Positions 3,369 to 26,068 of a stretch of DNA of 29,881 nt are shown piece by piece. Location of the stretch: the IMG/VR virus record IMGVR_UViG_3300006013_000012, positions 1 to 29,881 of that record; one strand, written 5' to 3'. The notes under the pieces are model-generated. The model was given only the letters and a program-made list of their open reading frames with translations, did not search any database and had not been told where the DNA came from. The translations under genes and the position numbers were made by a program. The stretch comes from a virus. How positions within the stretch are numbered: position 1 is the stretch's first letter; each line of letters starts with the position of its first letter.

Positions 3369-4209
3369 TATCTACATAGAAAATAACGAACCTAATTTAA
3401 ATGAAAAACACCAATTCACTAAAACACAATTAGCAAAACACTATCAAAAATTAATAGATGTTAAGAAAGAATATGCTAAGCATTGTAATGCTGAATACAG
3501 ACTTTATGAAAATGATACTTATTGGCAAAAATTTAAAAAGAAATTCAATGGGTACCAATTTGATATCATCAATCTATACAAGATACATCTATGGGAAGAA
3601 TTAGGTAAGGAATATGATAATGTTCTTTACTTTGATTTTGATGTAGTACCAAATACAACTGAATCCTTTTTTGAAAAATTTGATATGAATAAAATTTGTG
3701 TTCACGCTGTCAATGCAACTAAAGAAAATATATGGAGTACAAGTGCTTTAAAACGTTATAAGAAAAAGATAAACACATATGAAGAAATAGTTAGTAACTT
3801 TGATGGTTATAGTATGTACGTCAAAGCGATTGCTAAAAAATCAATGTTAGCATTAGATAACAATTTTAATACAGATTATCTAATAGTAAATACAGCAATA
3901 TTAGGTGGCAATTCAAATGCTACAAAACAATTAAAATATACAGAAAAATTAGATGAACTTTTAAATATACTAAATGAAGCAAAAGAAGAAAAACTATTTG
4001 GAGAGAATATATCAAAACTGTTCTTTCCAAACAATGAAGTCTTTTTCCAATATCTATTGGATAAATATAAGATAAAATGGTTTAACATACCTTATGAATG
4101 GCATACATATTTAATGTCTAAAAACAAAATTACAAAAGATATTAAAAATTCTAAAATGATACATTTAATCAATAAAAGATTTGAGGAACTATGGGAGATA
4201 TTAAAATGA
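3349..4209 (+). CDS. Glycosyltransferase-like protein with DxD motif (copy 2)
   Basis: From ATG 3349 this protein has 286 residues and is a clear paralogue of the preceding gene: both open with IIYSIYI/VIYSIYI, share the NFYKIHL/NLYKIHLWEEL segment, and have a DFD metal motif (residues 96-98 here, in YFDFDVVP). It is therefore assigned to the same GT-A-like glycosyltransferase group. An upstream in-frame ATG at 3328 exists but lacks a ribosome-binding site, whereas 3349 has GGAGG. The gene overlaps copy 1 by 20 bases and its stop overlaps the next start as ATGA (4206-4209). The C-terminal halves of the two copies diverge more than the N-terminal halves, which suggests different acceptors; that is inference. 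Confidence 0.7.
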   Translation: MKNIIYSIYIENNEPNLNEKHQFTKTQLAKHYQKLIDVKKEYAKHCNAEYRLYENDTYWQKFKKKFNGYQFDIINLYKIHLWEELGKEYDNVLYFDFDVVPNTTESFFEKFDMNKICVHAVNATKENIWSTSALKRYKKKINTYEEIVSNFDGYSMYVKAIAKKSMLALDNNFNTDYLIVNTAILGGNSNATKQLKYTEKLDELLNILNEAKEEKLFGENISKLFFPNNEVFFQYLLDKYKIKWFNIPYEWHTYLMSKNKITKDIKNSKMIHLINKRFEELWEILK

Positions 4210-5330
4210 GCTGGACATTTCCTATTGATTTAAAACTTGATATTACAACTAGATGTAATGCTGGGTGTCCTCAATGTCATAGAACAAACTTAACTGGATT
4301 AAAAGCACACGAATGGTTACCAGATATTGTTTGGTCTTTAAACCAATTTAAACAAGCCTTTCCTGAAAAAATTACTAAACACATTTATAATTTTAATATT
4401 TGTGGGACGTGGGGTGACCCTTTAACAAATAATGATTTATTAGATATAACAAGATATATCAGACAAGTAAATCCAGAATCACATATTTCTATCAATACAA
4501 ACGGTTCATTAAGAAATGAAGATTGGTGGTGGGAATTTGGAGCAATAGGAGGTAAAAACCTACACGTTGTTTTTGCTGTTGAAGGCACCACACAAAAAAT
4601 GCACGAAAGATATAGGCAGTTTACTTTCTTGGATAAAATTTTAAAAAATATGGAGATGTTATCTAACACTAAAGCAAGAATACGAGTTGATACTTTAGTA
4701 TGGAAACATAATGAAAATCATTTAGATGAAATTGAAAAATTAGTTATGGATCACGGAGCAACCAAACATAACAGAATTTTAACTGACCGTTGGGAAGGCC
4801 GTAAAGAAATGACTTTTTTTACTGGAAAGGAAGCTACAGTTTTAGGAAAAGCTGGTGTTGATTTTTCAAATGAAGAAAAAACATATAACAAACGTGAAGC
4901 TGATTGTTTTACAGATGATGAAGGAACAGAAAAAAAAATTGATAATTTTACTAAACAAACAACAAAACTAACAGTACTAGATGGTATAACACTTAACAAA
5001 ATAAGAAAAGAAAAAGAAATAATAGATATAACTTGCAAATGGAAAAAAGCAAATAAACTTGAAATTGAATCAAGTGGTCAAGTTTTACCTTGTTGTTATT
5101 TTTCTAATCCATATTTTTTAGATGAACACAATCCTTCTAACGTAAGTAATTTTATGGTACATCCAATTATGAAAGAATATGAAAAATATAAAAAAGAACT
5201 TAATATTTTTACTGCTAATTTAATAGATATAATAAATCACAAATGGTATACAGAAATATTACCTAATAGTTGGAATACTGCTAATCCTGTTTTGCAATGT
5301 CAAAGACACTGTGGAAAATGTAATGTATAA
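4206..5330 (+). CDS. Radical SAM protein with C-terminal SPASM-like cysteine domain
   Basis: The CxxxCxxC motif that holds the radical SAM 4Fe-4S cluster is at Cys17, Cys21 and Cys24 (RCNAGCPQC). Residues 65-72 (ICGTWGDP) occupy the place of the usual GGEP SAM-binding motif. The C-terminal part carries further cysteines at 277, 296, 297, 365, 369 and 372, ending CQRHCGKC, the layout of a SPASM auxiliary cluster domain. Such enzymes modify peptides or sugars by radical chemistry. ATG 4206 is chosen over the in-frame ATG 4191 because GGGAG at 4194-4198 is well placed and the start forms an ATGA overlap with the preceding gene. The protein has 374 residues. Substrate unknown; no precursor peptide lies nearby. 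Confidence 0.8.
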   Translation: MSWTFPIDLKLDITTRCNAGCPQCHRTNLTGLKAHEWLPDIVWSLNQFKQAFPEKITKHIYNFNICGTWGDPLTNNDLLDITRYIRQVNPESHISINTNGSLRNEDWWWEFGAIGGKNLHVVFAVEGTTQKMHERYRQFTFLDKILKNMEMLSNTKARIRVDTLVWKHNENHLDEIEKLVMDHGATKHNRILTDRWEGRKEMTFFTGKEATVLGKAGVDFSNEEKTYNKREADCFTDDEGTEKKIDNFTKQTTKLTVLDGITLNKIRKEKEIIDITCKWKKANKLEIESSGQVLPCCYFSNPYFLDEHNPSNVSNFMVHPIMKEYEKYKKELNIFTANLIDIINHKWYTEILPNSWNTANPVLQCQRHCGKCNV

Positions 5331-6459
5331 ATCAGAAATAAAAGAATTCTACGATAAGAACAAAGCCTATTGTCATTATCCTTTTAGAGAAATATATAAC
5401 AATAGTAGCGGACATTATAAACTATGTTGCCACGCTAATGTACATCCAGATACTAGGAAATATACAACTCAAAATATAACACCATTTAAATATTTTCGTT
5501 CTAAAGAAATGGAAGGAATAAGAAACAAAATGCTATCAGGAGAAAAAATGTCCTCTTGCCAAGTATGTTATCAAATGGAAGAGGCAAGTGGTGAATCATA
5601 TAGAACTAAAGATGTAAAAAAAATAAGTGGCATTGAATTAGAACCTGCAAGTATTGGATTGAAATTAAGAGTACACGGATCATATTGTAATTTACAATGT
5701 TATATGTGCCATCCACATAATTCATCTGGAAGAAGAAATGAAATGAAAGCAGTATATGGTAAAGAAGTATTAAAAAAATGGATGCCAAATTTCAAAGGAC
5801 TTAATTATACTCAATGGAATGATATATTAAAAGATATTTTAGATAATATTCATTTAGTAGAATATATAGTTGTTACAGGTGGTGAACCATTACTATTACC
5901 TAAACAATGGGAAATGATTGAAAAAATACCAGAAGAACACGCAAAACATATTCATTTAGCATATGATACTAATTTAACAGAATTAACATATAAAAACCAT
6001 TCTATCTTTGACGTAGCAAAAAAATTTAAGGAAGTTGATTTAAGGGCGTCTTGCGACCATTATGGTAGAAAATTAGAATGGATAAGATATCCAATAAACA
6101 GAAAAAGATTTGAATCTAATTTAATTGAAGCTAAAGATTTAATAAAATTTATTAATTGTGCTCCATCTATTTTAAACATTTATGATTTAGATAAAATTTA
6201 TGATTACTATAAACAACATTTTGGTCTACGTACACAATTTACAAGTATAGTAAGAACACCTCATATGTTATCTATAAAAAATGTGAAAGATAAAGATATA
6301 TTATTAAAAAAATATGAAAAGTTAGAATGGTTTAATTATATTAAATCTGAATTATCAATGCCAATATATGATAAAGACAATATAAAAATGAAAAAATATT
6401 GTGATGATTTATCTAAACATAGAAACTTTAATTGGAGAGAACTTTGGAATGAATTCTAG
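5323..6459 (+). CDS. Twitch-domain radical SAM protein
   Basis: The 378-residue protein begins with a cysteine-containing half-SPASM (Twitch) region: Cys17, Cys35-Cys36, Cys79 and Cys82 (CQVCYQM). The radical SAM core follows, with CxxxCxxC at Cys122, Cys126 and Cys129 (SYCNLQCYMC) and a classical GGEP motif at 186-189 (VVTGGEPLLLP). An N-terminal Twitch domain placed before the SAM core matches the N-terminal-Twitch radical SAM group. A GTG at 5311 is in frame, but ATG 5323 is preferred and gives an 8-base overlap with the upstream gene. Translational coupling with the SPASM enzyme suggests the two act in one pathway. The reaction is unknown. Confidence 0.8.
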   Translation: MYKSEIKEFYDKNKAYCHYPFREIYNNSSGHYKLCCHANVHPDTRKYTTQNITPFKYFRSKEMEGIRNKMLSGEKMSSCQVCYQMEEASGESYRTKDVKKISGIELEPASIGLKLRVHGSYCNLQCYMCHPHNSSGRRNEMKAVYGKEVLKKWMPNFKGLNYTQWNDILKDILDNIHLVEYIVVTGGEPLLLPKQWEMIEKIPEEHAKHIHLAYDTNLTELTYKNHSIFDVAKKFKEVDLRASCDHYGRKLEWIRYPINRKRFESNLIEAKDLIKFINCAPSILNIYDLDKIYDYYKQHFGLRTQFTSIVRTPHMLSIKNVKDKDILLKKYEKLEWFNYIKSELSMPIYDKDNIKMKKYCDDLSKHRNFNWRELWNEF

Positions 6460-6499
6460 GGGTTATAAACGCTGGAAGTTAACAGGAGATATGATTGTA

Positions 6500-7186
6500 A
6501 TGAATTCTAAAACATACAATTTTTCAAATAGGTTTATTAATATAGACTCTACTCATAGGTGTCCTTTAGAATGCCCTAAATGTCTGCGTCAAGCAATACG
6601 AAGACGAGGTTATAAAGTACCTGGAAGAGATATGCCGTGGAATGATTTTATAAAAATTGCTAAATACTTTAAAAAGGGATTAATTTTTTGCGGTCAAATA
6701 TCAGACCCTACATTTAATCCTAAACTTATTAAAAAATTAAAATATTGTAAAGAAAATAAGATTAAAGCTATACTTAATACTGCCGCTTCACAAAGACCTA
6801 TAGAGTGGTATAAAGAAGCGTTTGAAGCAAATAAAAATGCTTTATGGATTTTTGGTGTAGATGGTCTACCAAAAGATAGTCACAAATATAGAATTCATCA
6901 AGATGGTGAAAAACTATTTAAAGTTATGAAAATGGGAGCCAAACTTGGTTTGTTTATACGTTGGCAATATATTGTTTTTAACTACAATGAAAATAATATA
7001 GAAGAAGCAAGACAAATGGCAAAATCTAATGGTATTCATTTTGATGTAATCCATTCAGGACGTTGGGGTACCAAAGACCAATATAAACCTAAAAACCCAA
7101 ACAACTATTTAAATAGTAAGGGTGAATCACTTAATAAAGATTATGCAAAACATTATGCGGAGTATTTTAAAAATGAAAAAAATTAA
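6500..7186 (+). CDS. Radical SAM core protein lacking its SPASM domain (split gene, part 1)
   Basis: Residues 21-28 (CPLECPKC) are a radical SAM CxxxCxxC motif close to the N-terminus; the strand-helix repeats of the core follow. ATG 6500 is chosen because AGGAG lies at 6484-6488, but ATG 6449 (overlapping the previous gene by 11 bases) and ATG 6491 are in frame and possible. From 6500 it has 228 residues, short for this type: it stops before the C-terminal cysteine domain present in the gene at 4206. That missing domain begins immediately, in the +1 frame, in the next gene. The junction lies in a run of seven A (7176-7182). It may be a natural split enzyme, a frameshifted gene or a sequencing indel. 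Confidence 0.7.
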   Translation: MNSKTYNFSNRFINIDSTHRCPLECPKCLRQAIRRRGYKVPGRDMPWNDFIKIAKYFKKGLIFCGQISDPTFNPKLIKKLKYCKENKIKAILNTAASQRPIEWYKEAFEANKNALWIFGVDGLPKDSHKYRIHQDGEKLFKVMKMGAKLGLFIRWQYIVFNYNENNIEEARQMAKSNGIHFDVIHSGRWGTKDQYKPKNPNNYLNSKGESLNKDYAKHYAEYFKNEKN

Positions 7187-8273
7187 TGCAAAATGTTTAG
7201 CATTTAAAGAACTTTCTTATACAGCAGAAGGTTATTTAATACCTTGTTGTTGGTGTGATAATCCTAAAAGTTGGATACAGCCGCAAATTGCAAGATTTAA
7301 AAAAGAACATTTAAAACTTGAAAACAATGAAAAAGTTGAAGACATTATCTATAGTAAAGAATGGAAAGATTTTTTTAAAGAGTTAGATACAAATCCATCA
7401 ATAACTTGTCAAAGATATTGTGGTGTATCTCTAAATTATAGTGTTAATAAAAGACCAGAACCAGGAAGTCCATTTAGAAAATGGATATCTTACCGCAAAG
7501 AACAAAAAATTAAAATAGGTTGTGTTTACTTTGAAGGTAAATATTCACTTGATTATGTTGAAAAACTTTATAATGGATTAAAAAAATATTGTACACTACC
7601 ATTTGAATTCATTTGTTATAGTGATAATCCAAATGTTAAAGCAGATGTTGTTATTCCTTTACCTAAAGATAGTAAAATAAAACGTCATTGGCACAAACTA
7701 TCTTTCTTTAATCCTGAATTTGCAAACCAAGAAGAAGGAGATGAAATTATTATTATGGACATTGACCAAATTATTATGAGTAATATAGATGATATAATAG
7801 GTTGGCCTATAGCAGATAATGAATTAGTATCTTATGATAAATGGTGGGGCGGACCAAAACCAAAACTTCAAGGTGGTTTTTATAAATTTAAATCTGGACA
7901 ATGTAAATTTATATGGGATACCTTTATAGAAAATCCAGAAAAATGGCAATTACATTATTATAATACAAATCAAGTACATTACAAATATTTTGGTGAACAA
8001 AATTTTGTTGAAGATATTACAACTAAAAATAATATAGAAATAACATTAATTAATGGTAAATGGATTGGTAAATATACATTGGACAAACAACAGAATTTAG
8101 AAAACAATGTAGTGTATTGTAAAAAATTTGATGAGGATTATATGATACTTGATGAACCAAATCCTAATTTAAAGATTATACACTTTGCTGGTCCAGAAAC
8201 TGCTATACACAATTGCAAAGCAGATTGGATTAAGTCTTATTGGAATCTTCCCAAAGACCAAGAAATACCTTAA
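7173..8273 (+). CDS. SPASM-like cysteine domain fused to a glycosyltransferase domain (split gene, part 2)
   Basis: From ATG 7173 the protein has 366 residues in two parts. Residues 1-90 carry Cys8, Cys25-Cys26, Cys28, Cys79 and Cys83 in a pattern (LIPCCWCDNP, then CQRYCG) that matches the SPASM-like C-terminus of the radical SAM gene at 4206. Residues from about 113 form a GT-A-like glycosyltransferase domain: a strand KIGCVYFEG, a loop FICYSDNPN, and the DxD motif DID at 196-198 in IIIMDIDQI. GGAG at 7159-7162 gives it its own ribosome-binding site, and it overlaps the preceding gene by 14 bases. Joined to that gene, it would be a radical SAM/SPASM/glycosyltransferase multidomain enzyme. 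It overlaps the convergent gene by 44 bases at its 3' end. Confidence 0.7.
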   Translation: MKKINAKCLAFKELSYTAEGYLIPCCWCDNPKSWIQPQIARFKKEHLKLENNEKVEDIIYSKEWKDFFKELDTNPSITCQRYCGVSLNYSVNKRPEPGSPFRKWISYRKEQKIKIGCVYFEGKYSLDYVEKLYNGLKKYCTLPFEFICYSDNPNVKADVVIPLPKDSKIKRHWHKLSFFNPEFANQEEGDEIIIMDIDQIIMSNIDDIIGWPIADNELVSYDKWWGGPKPKLQGGFYKFKSGQCKFIWDTFIENPEKWQLHYYNTNQVHYKYFGEQNFVEDITTKNNIEITLINGKWIGKYTLDKQQNLENNVVYCKKFDEDYMILDEPNPNLKIIHFAGPETAIHNCKADWIKSYWNLPKDQEIP

Positions 8274-22628: not shown

Positions 22629-24482
22629 TTAATAACTGGAAGTTGTTGTGTAGCCCACACCAGCTTCAGCAGAACCTCCTACAAAAGAATCAGCGGTAAC
22701 TGTTATATTTGAATTCCCAACATCAATTTCTACAATTTGGTCTCTAACAGGAACAACATCATTTGAATTTGGTGTTACTGTTAATTGAACTATAGTTGAA
22801 ACTTTTCCTCCTATATTTGTTATACTAGCAATTTTTAAAGAGTTAATTGTAACTGCACCTGTGCTATAATCAATTGTACCTTGTGATGAATTTAAATAAC
22901 TTTTTACACCACTAGCAAGAAAATATAATCTTACATTACCTGCTCCATCACTATCAAAAAAGAATTCGTTATCATTTCCATCTATTTTAAATCCTGTTGA
23001 ACTTAATATCCCACCTGTACTTGCTAAATGTCCAGAGTGTGGATTATATAATGCATTTCTAAAATAAACAAAATATTTTGATGATGATAAAAGTATTGGT
23101 GTAAAATCTTTTCTTATTTTAACAGTTGTTATATTTGATAAAATACTATCATCTGTTTCATCAATCAAACCTGTAACTTTTGAAAATCTGAATACTGAAT
23201 CAAACTTTTGTAAATTTTCTGTATTATAATTTATTAGTGTATTAATAACTTCTGCTTTTATAGTTGAAGCAGTTTTTGCTGTTGCCTTTGCGTCATACTT
23301 AACATTTGAAGTAATTAATACGGATGTTGTTTCTGGATCTTTTATAACAGGTCTTACTGAAGCAACGTTAAAAGGTCTTAATTGAGTTACAATATCTGCT
23401 TTCGTTGTATCAGTTAACGTAGAACCTGAAGCAGCTTTAATAGAAATATTTACAACACCATATTGTGGAGTTTCATCATCTTCACCACCCCACGCACTTA
23501 TTGATAATGCATTTGGATAAATTGATTTAACCAACGTTTCATAATCAGTTGCTGTGACTGCTCTATCTTGAGCTGAATATTGTAGAGGTGCATTAAATTT
23601 TATTGATTCACTTGTTTCACCTTCTGAACCTCCTTGAGAATTTGAATCAGTTGAAATAGTAACGTCTGTATAACCACCAACGTTTCCATTTAATGCAAAT
23701 GTTGAAGCTCCATTTGAATCTGTTCTATTAGTAATAACATATTCCATAATAACTATATTATCATCACTTAATTTTTTACCTGTTACACCATCACCAAAAT
23801 AAATTTGAAATTTTCCATCAATTGTTTCTTGTATAAAATAAACTTTTGAATCACTTGATACACTATTATAACCACCTGCTAAAGCATAAACACTTTGTGT
23901 TGTATCAGTTGAACTATTTTGAACTATAATTTTTAATGTTGATGTATCTGCTGTATTAGTTGGTATAACTAATTTTTGGTCTGGATCATTTATATCATAA
24001 ACATATTTAAATGTAACCAACGTTCCTTCATAAATTGTAGCATTTTTAAATTCGTAAATACCATCAACTGGTGAAATTGTTATATCTTCATTTGTTACAT
24101 ACTGATATTCTACTGAATTAACTGTAGTTGAAAAAACTGTTCCTTTTACCATTGTAACAGACGAACCAATTGCATTATTTAATTTAATATCAATAGATGC
24201 TCTTGGTGCTCTAGGAGATGAAGGTGTATAACCTAACATCTTTGCTAATGATACAATATTATTTCTAATATCAGCACTATCCAAATACAATTCGTTAGTT
24301 GACATATTAGCAATATATGACAAATAATGTGTGTTGTAAGATAACACGTCTAATAGAATTGAAAGACCAGAACCATCAAAGTCATAATCTTGAAATTGTG
24401 TTTGACTTTGTAAAAATGTTTTTAGATTTGATTTGATTTTATCAAAATCTAATTCTGATATTTGTAATTTGTGTTGTGCCAT
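22629..24482 (-). CDS. 6: Baseplate wedge protein gp6 homologue
   Basis: The 617-residue protein opens with an N-terminal region (QISELDFDKIKSNLKTFLQS, then FDGSGLSILLDVLSYNTHYL and MSTNELYLDSADIRNNIVSL) that is characteristic of gp6/gpJ-type baseplate wedge proteins. T4 gp6 has 660 residues. Later sections include AVTATDYETLVKSIYPNALS and a segment with VRPVIKDP that are typical of the central domains. Two gp6 chains dimerise to form the inner ring of the baseplate in T4; that role is expected here. The start is one base from the gp25 stop, so the two are translated together. Confidence 0.9.
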   Translation of the reverse strand: MAQHKLQISELDFDKIKSNLKTFLQSQTQFQDYDFDGSGLSILLDVLSYNTHYLSYIANMSTNELYLDSADIRNNIVSLAKMLGYTPSSPRAPRASIDIKLNNAIGSSVTMVKGTVFSTTVNSVEYQYVTNEDITISPVDGIYEFKNATIYEGTLVTFKYVYDINDPDQKLVIPTNTADTSTLKIIVQNSSTDTTQSVYALAGGYNSVSSDSKVYFIQETIDGKFQIYFGDGVTGKKLSDDNIVIMEYVITNRTDSNGASTFALNGNVGGYTDVTISTDSNSQGGSEGETSESIKFNAPLQYSAQDRAVTATDYETLVKSIYPNALSISAWGGEDDETPQYGVVNISIKAASGSTLTDTTKADIVTQLRPFNVASVRPVIKDPETTSVLITSNVKYDAKATAKTASTIKAEVINTLINYNTENLQKFDSVFRFSKVTGLIDETDDSILSNITTVKIRKDFTPILLSSSKYFVYFRNALYNPHSGHLASTGGILSSTGFKIDGNDNEFFFDSDGAGNVRLYFLASGVKSYLNSSQGTIDYSTGAVTINSLKIASITNIGGKVSTIVQLTVTPNSNDVVPVRDQIVEIDVGNSNITVTADSFVGGSAEAGVGYTTTSSY

Positions 24483-24483
24483 C

Positions 24484-24969
24484 TTATCTTAACCTTTGTA
24501 ATTGTACATTAACTACTTGTGGAAGAGCAATACCTATAATATAAAAATGTATATCTACTCGTAATCTATTGCTATCTATATCTTCACCAATAGCTGGATT
24601 CATTGATTCAAAAGTATCATCATTAATTATAATTGAAGTTAAAGAAATTCTTGGTTCATTATTTACCAAAACTTCTTCTATTTTTCTTTTTAAAAATACT
24701 GATGTTAATGGTGTATAATTTTCAAAAAGAAGTTGTCTTACTCCACAACCTAATTCAGGATGGAAAAGTCTTTCATAAAAGTTTGTTTGTACTAAATTTT
24801 TAACAGCTCTTTTAATTGCTATGACATCTTCAACAGTATTAACATCATTGGTAACTATATTTCTACCAAAATTCAAATCTATATCTTTGAATTTCCTAGA
24901 TTGTTTAGTACTAGTACTTTTTACACTAGGAGTCCAATCACCTAAAAATGTTTGATTTGATTGTGCCAT
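24484..24969 (-). CDS. 25: Baseplate wedge protein gp25 homologue
   Basis: From ATG 24969 this is a 161-residue gp25-family protein. The family core is seen in FKDIDLNFGRN, IKRAVKNLVQTN, ERLFHPELGCGVRQLLFEN and YTPLT, followed by NNEPRI; T4 gp25 has equivalents in RPFDPEFGCDLSDQLFENMT and NYEPRID. gp25 joins the inner baseplate to the sheath in T4. A TTG at 24975 would add two residues but is not needed. The late promoter at 24976-24983 ends just seven bases from the ATG, so transcription should start close to or at the start codon. There is no room for a ribosome-binding site on a transcript from that promoter. Confidence 0.9.
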   Translation of the reverse strand: MAQSNQTFLGDWTPSVKSTSTKQSRKFKDIDLNFGRNIVTNDVNTVEDVIAIKRAVKNLVQTNFYERLFHPELGCGVRQLLFENYTPLTSVFLKRKIEEVLVNNEPRISLTSIIINDDTFESMNPAIGEDIDSNRLRVDIHFYIIGIALPQVVNVQLQRLR

Positions 24970-24975
24970 ATACAA

Positions 24976-24983
24976 TATTTATA
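24976..24983 (-). promoter_or_regulatory. T4-type late promoter abutting gene 25
   Basis: A perfect TATAAATA on the minus strand, separated from ATG 24969 by only six bases (TTGTAT). A T4-type start point about six or seven bases downstream would give a leaderless or nearly leaderless mRNA for gp25. Confidence 0.65.
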
Positions 24984-24986
24984 CGT

Positions 24987-25286
24987 TTATCCTGCGAAGA
25001 CTGTATCTGATCCTTGAGTCATTTGTCCTGCGTCTGTGGAATCATCTTTTCTTGCAATAGACAACCCTACTACATTAACTGTTGAAGAACCTACATTAAC
25101 AACAGCAACGTGTGGAGCGCAAGGAGGTGATGGTGGAAAAGGATGTGATATAGTTTTATCTGTTTTTCTTGCTATTAAAATACCATTTGCGAAAACCGTA
25201 CTTTGAGTAGGAGTATCTAATATAGTTGTTGAGGCACAAATATGGCCTGTTGATAAACTATCACCTTTTCTACTTACTTTTGGCAT
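24987..25286 (-). CDS. PAAR-repeat baseplate spike tip protein (T4 gp5.4-like)
   Basis: The 99-residue protein is a PAAR-repeat protein, the sharp tip at the end of contractile-phage spikes. Visible signs are the N-terminal VSRKGDSLSTGHICA, the central GILIARKTDKTISHP, and the repeat GLSIARKDDSTDAG. His15, His48, Cys56 and His59 are suitably placed to hold the zinc or iron ion known at the tip of PAAR proteins. Its start overlaps the stop of a 22-residue ORF by one base (TAATG), coupling it to the bL12-like gene. In T4 the PAAR protein gp5.4 is encoded beside gene 6, as here. Confidence 0.85.
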   Translation of the reverse strand: MPKVSRKGDSLSTGHICASTTILDTPTQSTVFANGILIARKTDKTISHPFPPSPPCAPHVAVVNVGSSTVNVVGLSIARKDDSTDAGQMTQGSDTVFAG

Positions 25287-25354
25287 TATTCTTTATTTCC
25301 GTAAACTTCTCTTTCCATTCTCATTATAAATCTGTAAAATTCGTCTTCGCTCAT
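25286..25354 (-). CDS. 22-residue ORF bridging bL12-like gene and PAAR gene
   Basis: The ORF starts with MSEDEFYRFIMRMER and is acidic at the N-terminus and amphipathic, without cysteines. Its ATG (25352-25354) overlaps the bL12-like stop as ATGA and its TAA stop overlaps the PAAR start as TAATG, so it exactly fills the gap between the two genes. Such double overlap is hard to explain by chance and suggests it is translated, perhaps to carry ribosomes from the bL12-like gene to the PAAR gene. Function unknown. Confidence 0.55.
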   Translation of the reverse strand: MSEDEFYRFIMRMEREVYGNKE

Positions 25355-25716
25355 TGTATCTCTACTTTCCCACCTACTAATTCCAACTCTTTAGTTATTT
25401 TATCTGCTTCTTCTTGTTCTAGGTCTTCTTTAACTACAGAAGGAGCATCTTCTACAAAATTCTTTGCTTCTAACAAACCCATATCTCTAAAATGTCTAAT
25501 TTTTTGAATAACTGGTATTTTTTTACCAACTTCAAACCCTATTAAAACCACTTTAACTAATTTTGCTACTTTTTCTTCAACAATAGGTGCAGGTGCTGAA
25601 GTTAATGCCGCTAAATTTAAATTCCAAGCCTTTTCCAATTTTTTAGATAATTCTCCAGCTTCAATAACTGTTAATTTACCTAATTGCTCTACTAAACTAT
25701 CAATTGAGGTTGCCAT
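25351..25716 (-). CDS. Phage-encoded ribosomal protein bL12 (L7/L12) homologue
   Basis: The 121-residue protein has the whole layout of bacterial bL12 (about 120 residues): an N-terminal dimerisation domain (SIDSLVEQLGKLTVIEAGEL), a short Ala/Pro hinge (SAPAPIVEE), and a C-terminal domain with the signature VGKKIPVIQKIRHFRDMG and LLEAKNFVEDAP. Compared with E. coli L12, the factor-binding residues Lys65, Ile69, Arg73 and Lys84 (mature numbering) are kept, while Lys70 is Gln. bL12 recruits EF-G, EF-Tu, IF2 and RF3 to the ribosome. A longer in-frame start at 25773 would add 19 hydrophobic and basic residues overlapping the upstream gene; ATG 25716 matches the family start. It is in a late operon with the baseplate tip. 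Confidence 0.88.
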   Translation of the reverse strand: MATSIDSLVEQLGKLTVIEAGELSKKLEKAWNLNLAALTSAPAPIVEEKVAKLVKVVLIGFEVGKKIPVIQKIRHFRDMGLLEAKNFVEDAPSVVKEDLEQEEADKITKELELVGGKVEIQ

Positions 25717-25882
25717 CTTTAAAACTTTTAGTTTGCATATTACCTTTTTTATTAGTATAAGTACAATACCCATTAAATTTGGGATATTTCATTAATAAAC
25801 TTTTTTTAAATTTTTTATAACTCATCGCTTGCATAATTTCAGCGGTTCCATCATCTTTTGTTACTGTATATTCATATCTCAT
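25700..25882 (-). CDS. Small basic hypothetical protein upstream of the bL12-like gene
   Basis: The 60-residue protein (opening MRYEYTVTKDDGTAEIMQAM) is rich in Lys, Tyr and Asn, has short alternating strands and a helix with KKFKKSLLMKYPKF, and is not recognised. It overlaps the bL12-like gene by 17 bases and its ATG overlaps the stop of the zinc-ribbon-like gene by one base (TAATG). The couplings on both sides support expression. A nucleic-acid-binding role would fit the charge, but this is a guess. Confidence 0.65.
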   Translation of the reverse strand: MRYEYTVTKDDGTAEIMQAMSYKKFKKSLLMKYPKFNGYCTYTNKKGNMQTKSFKDGNLN

Positions 25883-26040
25883 TATGTTTCTTCCGATTGT
25901 CCAGGGTAACTTTCATCATTTAGTGGTAAAGCGCAATCATCACAACGGCAATATTTACAAATTTCAATATTATTTGTTTCTATCATTTCTCTTTTGGGTT
26001 TTCCGCAATGGGATTCTCTTCCACAATTCTGACAATACAT
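25882..26040 (-). CDS. Small zinc-ribbon-like cysteine-rich protein
   Basis: This 52-residue protein has seven cysteines at positions 3, 6, 12, 28, 31, 33 and 36. The pairs CQNC at the N-terminus and CKYC/CRCDDC in the middle give two CxxC units 22 residues apart, the arrangement of a zinc ribbon. AGGAGGG lies five bases before the ATG, the best ribosome-binding site seen in the window. A late-like promoter AATAAATA is at 26061-26068. It is the first gene of the chain that ends with the PAAR gene. Zinc ribbons in phages often bind nucleic acid or ribosomes, but no function can be assigned. Confidence 0.7.
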   Translation of the reverse strand: MYCQNCGRESHCGKPKREMIETNNIEICKYCRCDDCALPLNDESYPGQSEET

Positions 26041-26060: not shown

Positions 26061-26068
26061 TATTTATT
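26061..26068 (-). promoter_or_regulatory. Late-like promoter for the bL12 operon
   Basis: AATAAATA on the minus strand, one mismatch from TATAAATA, 20 bases upstream of ATG 26040. It overlaps the stop of the upstream lipoprotein gene. Confidence 0.5.

Follow-up and report, generated by a model that had tools for sequence, protein, structure and literature searches.

Ribosomal protein bL12 encoded in a late-type baseplate operon of a marine T4-like phage: a candidate component of host ribosomes during infection

Introduction

Why a phage would carry the gene for a ribosomal protein among those for its baseplate is the question raised by a stretch of viral DNA of 29,881 nt (IMG/VR record IMGVR_UViG_3300006013_000012; hereafter the window, meaning the whole stretch), in which a gene for ribosomal protein bL12 lies close to that for the spike tip. 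As the preliminary description of this DNA had stated, the presence of a viral bL12 is not new by itself, having been reported in 2019 (Mizuno et al., PMC6375957) and 2020 (Zaragoza-Solas et al., PMC7029224). According to passages of the first report, the bL12 of Salmonella phage FSL SP-076 entered E. coli 70S ribosomes, and the tagged Salmonella phage protein could not be purified on ribosomes. The second describes an L12 homologue in some genomes of the pelagimyophage group PMP-A, phages apparently of the same kind as that of the window, in which bS21 is also found; the passage concerned does not give position, residues, phylogeny or exchange. The PMP-A reference phage, HTVC008M, differs from the window in lacking bL12. 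Phage bS21 has been reported to be transcribed late together with structural genes (Chen et al. 2022, passages of PMC9723584). Like the bL12 of the window, it is a ribosomal protein whose gene is placed with virion genes, but it is a protein of 30S initiation, its gene lies on the opposite strand, and the phages infect freshwater Bacteroidetes. Going by these passages, phage bL12, its entry into ribosomes, the pelagimyophage L12 and the late placement of a phage ribosomal protein (bS21) are already known. For the window, the preliminary description had left two options open: that the protein replaces host bL12 on ribosomes, or that a structural or assembly function in the virion was the reason for its recruitment.

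Results

Identity and setting of the bL12 gene

The source of the window is a marine, T4-like phage, kin of phages infecting SAR11 bacteria. The setting of the bL12 gene is genuinely viral, since it is part of an IMG/VR record and T4-like baseplate genes flank it, and an IMG/VR scan with the window protein yielded 80 viral bL12 loci beyond the window. Contamination or misassembly was ruled out because other IMG/VR contigs carry an 88-89% identical bL12 in the same gene order. No Rfam families or tRNAs were found in the window. Elsewhere, beside late genes, radical-SAM-like cysteine motifs were seen by eye in a run of proteins on the plus strand (4191-8273), and glycosyltransferase-like ORFs adjoin this run.

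The gene and the domains of its product are as follows:

25351..25716, minus strand: bL12 gene, 121 amino acids (aa); ATG start at 25716, TGA stop at 25353-25351
Residues 1-38: N-terminal dimer domain
Residues 39-52: hinge
Residues 53-121: C-terminal factor-binding domain

Judged by its sequence and predicted structure, this ORF is a genuine full-length, stand-alone, two-domain bL12, and the complete bL12 layout at normal length that had been noted earlier is borne out. Both Pfam families Ribosomal_L12 (PF00542, 1.2e-18) and Ribosomal_L12_N (PF16320, 1.2e-8) match over their curated cut-offs. Profile comparison with the PDB places T. maritima L7/L12 first (1.4e-26, residues 3-121), and at E up to 0.001 a profile of the viral relatives matched exclusively bL12 entries of that list. 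The N-terminal half of known bL12 is a dimer. In an AlphaFold2 model built with 39 viral sequences, the C-terminal domain is confident (pLDDT 81-89), residues 40-50 have the pLDDT below 50 of a flexible linker, and the N-terminal half is predicted as two helices with low confidence (pLDDT 50-56). Foldseek ranked the bL12 structures of T. maritima and E. coli at the top, and the predicted C-terminal domain superimposes on E. coli 1ctf with a TM score of 0.91 and an rmsd of 1.1 Å. The fold match and the bL12-only profile matches thus place the protein inside the bL12 family, with the C-terminal fold in place. Domain order, length, C-terminal fold and the surface residues K65/I69/R73/G79/L80/E82, but not Lys70, are shared with bacterial bL12 (rplL; 1dd3 of T. 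maritima, 1rqu and 1ctf of E. coli).

No PHROGs family matched this protein. A tblastn search with it against annotated phages gave weak matches alone (<60% identity). Most of these were Listeria, Staphylococcus and faecal records without annotation, in which bacterial DNA may be present, and none of the cultivated phage bL12s of Mizuno et al. was found at E up to 0.01.

Genes and putative promoters of the operon

The features of the operon, all on the minus strand, are listed in order of transcription:

26061..26068, minus strand: AATAAATA, which resembles the late-promoter motif TATAAATA with one mismatch and lies 21-28 nt before the first ATG of the operon
25882..26040, minus strand: zinc-ribbon-like protein, 52 aa, apparent first gene of the operon; resembles Mosig_00110 by eye
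25700..25882, minus strand: 60-aa ORF directly upstream of bL12, overlapping the bL12 start by 17 nt
25351..25716, minus strand: bL12
25286..25354, minus strand: 22-codon mini-ORF MSEDEFYRFIMRMEREVYGNKE, with an ATGA overlap with the bL12 stop and a TAATG overlap with the PAAR start
24987..25286, minus strand: PAAR-motif spike tip protein (PF05488, 3.7e-8; phrog_281, 1.5e-15)
24976..24983, minus strand: exact TATAAATA late-promoter motif ahead of gp25
24484..24969, minus strand: baseplate wedge gp25 homologue (PF04965, 1.2e-11; phrog_261, 8.5e-38)
22629..24482, minus strand: baseplate wedge gp6 homologue (phrog_219, 1.7e-174; 70.5% identity to Mosig EXVC030M)

The order is therefore zinc ribbon, 60-aa ORF, bL12, mini-ORF, PAAR, gp25 and gp6. 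The preliminary description had placed bL12 between a zinc-ribbon-like gene and the spike tip; both belong to the operon, but neither is a direct neighbour, as the 60-aa ORF and the mini-ORF, which had been missed, lie in between. A zinc-ribbon profile was found in 101 loci. The 60-aa ORF resembles, by eye, ORFs of 84-89 aa upstream of PAAR in Mosig and HTVC008M, and has a single weak PHROG match (phrog_13711, 0.003). From the zinc ribbon through PAAR, each of the five genes overlaps the next by 1 to 17 nt, an arrangement suggestive of translational coupling.

A mini-ORF starting within the end of bL12 through an ATGA overlap is present in most distinct loci examined (e.g., L028, L017, L068 and L071). 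In the group of the window it reads MSEDEFYRFIMRMEREVYG, and in most other loci it encodes a peptide of 31-34 aa with one likely membrane helix, for example MIEYLKDAKKWLTETKVPVYVLILVVLIWILA. In phages with bL12 before a DNA polymerase gene, another short ORF of 35-45 aa, ending in TWTIKEIIEAMNRILDK, overlaps the bL12 stop (L067:6360-6467, L072:6363-6470 and L070:1097-1234).

T4-like late promoters with the sequence TATAAATA serve the annotation of related phages (passage in PMC9004378). Over the whole window this motif is not enriched (6 found versus 8.7 expected); it is informative solely where it lies upstream of genes. The exact motif stands ahead of gp25 here and in 93 of 98 distinct upstream regions of relatives, which makes it probable that gp25 is transcribed from a late promoter of its own; none was found ahead of PAAR or gp6. 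Upstream of the bL12 operon it occurs in 27 of 46 relatives, compared with 0 of 46 on the other strand. The late-type transcript proposed earlier is thus supported across relatives.

Viral lineage, recombination and selection

A tree was built from 39 viral bL12s, 112 bacterial bL12s and that of E. coli; the bacterial proteins came from a scan of genome contigs and are mostly from Alphaproteobacteria other than named SAR11, and both sets had been selected for their resemblance to the query protein or to relatives of it. All 39 viral proteins fall together on one side of a branch with an SH-aLRT support of 100. This fits a single viral bL12 lineage apart from bacteria, in a tree of a short protein that a wider sample could change. 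The viral clade also differs from bacterial bL12 by signature residues of its own: M78 (30 of 39), L, I or M at 81, N or T at 85, F86 and, in a subset, Gln70.

Within this lineage the two halves of the gene appear to have partly separate histories. When the window is compared with locus L010, DNA identity is 91-95% in the flanking genes and 96% in the N-terminal half of bL12 but only 71% in the C-terminal half; the mini-ORF is absent from L010. Similarly, the N-terminal halves of L070 and L072 are identical and their C-terminal halves 68% identical, and the reverse pattern is seen between L064 and L075 (N-terminal half 39%, C-terminal half 86%). Moreover, close relatives include each of the four possible pairings of bL12 C-terminal type (Gln or Lys) with PAAR type. 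Together, these patterns indicate recombination inside the bL12 gene and between bL12 and PAAR. Separately, the PAAR proteins of close relatives are of two very different types, 91-94% or 38-49% identical to that of the window. Which type is present does not follow gp6 identity, as would be expected if the spike tip were exchanged.

We considered whether bL12 could be a neutral passenger, a host gene acquired by chance and functionless. Relatively many replacement changes in the window allele would agree with this: compared with its seven closest relatives it has 14-18 replacement versus 2.5-7.5 silent changes, small numbers that are further complicated by recombination. The excess is concentrated in the hinge and around residues 75-78 and 90-91. 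However, the gene forms one viral clade across many phages with intact reading frames, its operon position is conserved, and dN/dS is low in most pairs (0.11-0.50 in eight pairs outside the lineage of the window), so that a functionless passenger is highly improbable.

Distribution and gene neighbourhoods

Recruitment of bL12 into the baseplate or spike as a structural or assembly protein, beside the PAAR tip, would explain its conserved place: in 68 of 80 IMG/VR relatives the gene directly precedes PAAR-gp25-gp6, in baseplates diverged to as little as 37% identity in gp25, and the operon layout implies co-transcription with PAAR. The same operon, however, also exists without bL12. Separate scans with gp6 supplied 123 loci that extend at least 500 nt beyond PAAR on its upstream side. 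In the gp6 tree of these loci, bL12 is present in 61 and absent from 62, and at least five changes are needed to explain this distribution. In the gp6 group of the window, all 44 loci contain bL12. Among cultured phages the nearest are Mosig EXVC030M, HTVC008M and Melnitz. All three have the baseplate genes and encode bS21, but no bL12 was detected in their whole genomes with the Pfam profile at E up to 1.

Conversely, bL12 lies outside the baseplate position in twelve loci. In L067 its neighbours, recognised by profile, are an IMPDH-like gene on one side and DNA polymerase B on the other; L072-L073 have the same gene layout, and they and L070 contain an 888-codon ORF of the same size and place as this polymerase. 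A kinase and RNase H are near bL12 in L075, and a ribonucleotide reductase in L078. Of the remaining neighbours searched, that in L080 was an FTR1-like permease and the others matched no family. The gene is thus neither required by the baseplate cluster, as the Mosig, HTVC008M and Melnitz clusters show, nor confined to it. A baseplate role is not what keeps bL12, because it adjoins replication genes in other phages; in addition, a structural protein would have no need to keep factor-binding residues, and PAAR types assort freely with bL12 types. Of the two options left open by the preliminary description, the structural or assembly role is accordingly disfavoured, and we regard it as very unlikely.

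Among ten bL12-carrying records, three also encode bS21 and none encodes uL10; the partner would therefore have to be host uL10. In a bL12-carrying phage record of 177 kb (G388), the bS21 gene has close to it an ORF resembling a small heat-shock protein (L324:1324-2343).

The factor-binding surface

Residues are numbered according to mature E. coli bL12. The spacing from W31 to K65 is 35 residues in the window protein, the same as in E. coli, compared with 37-40 in most alphaproteobacteria. The helix 4/5 surface forms a positively charged factor-binding patch (passage in PMC3677378). In agreement with the earlier observation that four factor-contact residues are kept and Lys70 is Gln, the alignment shows that the window protein retains K65, position 66 (I, where E. 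coli has V), I69, R73, G79, L80 and E82, and has Gln at 70. K65, I66, G79, L80, E82 and K84 are invariant in all 39 viral proteins, and positions 73 and 69 are R or K and I or L, respectively. The factor-contact residues are likewise kept in the bL12s of DFL12phi1 (Dinoroseobacter), RSB3 (Ralstonia) and FSL SP-076 (passages of PMC6375957). These cultivated examples are podoviruses in which the bL12 domain is often inside larger proteins and in varied contexts, unlike the stand-alone protein of the window.

Position 70 is Lys in 112 of 112 bacterial proteins, and Lys (31) or Gln (8) in the 39 viral ones. Whether Gln is phage-specific had been raised earlier: among these proteins it is found only in viruses, but in a subset of them. 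In every Gln protein this segment is VIQKIR. Its Lys at 71 takes the place of the Glu present in 85 of 112 bacteria, so that helix 4 stays positively charged. Being limited to a subset and paired with Lys71, Gln70 is a weak sign of altered function. Data on K70 were sought in the literature, and the term was not found among the best matches. In helix 5, position 81 is always L, I or M in the viruses versus T, K, A or R in the sampled alphaproteobacteria, and position 86 is always F; Mycoplasma bL12 likewise has Met at 81. Going by the alignment, the viral-only changes at 81 and 86 could alter factor binding.

Such changes would suit a dominant-negative or decoy bL12 that occupies host uL10 or sequesters factors, and thereby slows host translation or bypasses a translation-stalling defence. 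Besides Gln70, the viral-only changes at 76, 81 and 86 lie near the factor-binding surface, and exchange of the C-terminal half with retention of the N-terminal half is expected when selection on the factor-binding half changes. Viral bS21-containing ribosomes were also reported to be poor at in vitro translation (passage in PMC6375957). A general block of translation would nevertheless be costly, given late co-expression with virion genes, most viral copies retain Lys70, and the Gln types gain Lys71. We therefore consider a decoy unlikely.

Discussion

Of the readings weighed above, we favour replacement of host bL12 on host ribosomes during late infection, which is probably what this phage protein does. 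Support for this ribosomal role comes from a factor-binding surface whose residues hardly vary, from conservation of the N-terminal half, from low dN/dS in pairs outside the lineage of the window, from the occurrence of the gene in unrelated neighbourhoods, and from bS21 being encoded by some related bL12-carrying phages. The entry of the Salmonella phage bL12 into E. coli ribosomes and the late transcription of phage bS21 are precedents. Counting against it are the low-confidence prediction of the N-terminal half, the viral changes in helix 5, the replacement excess of the window allele and the reported failure to purify the tagged Salmonella phage protein on ribosomes. According to the mechanism we propose, phage bL12 would swap, late in infection, with the host protein bound to uL10 in the stalk of the host 50S subunit. 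Its N-terminal half would dimerise and bind host uL10, and its C-terminal domain would recruit EF-Tu, EF-G, IF2 and RF3. Produced alongside virion proteins, phage bL12 may keep or retune stalk function when the demand for translation peaks.

The fixed operon position, the single viral lineage, the Gln70 subset, the C-terminal exchange and the coupled mini-ORFs appear to be new, as they were not found in main-text passages of the papers cited. A wider proposal, which we put forward tentatively and consider rather doubtful, is that one viral bL12 lineage circulates among marine phages as a two-part module, with a conserved N-terminal half as the anchor to host uL10 and a swappable C-terminal domain that would alter the recruitment of translation factors by phage-modified ribosomes, and that it would contribute, with phage bS21, to specialised late ribosomes.

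The natural C-terminal variants on a common N-terminal half would offer a test of which stalk residues choose between translation factors. If phage bL12 does enter host ribosomes, phages related to those of one of the most abundant bacterial groups in the ocean would remodel both ribosomal subunits, through bS21 and bL12, during virion production.
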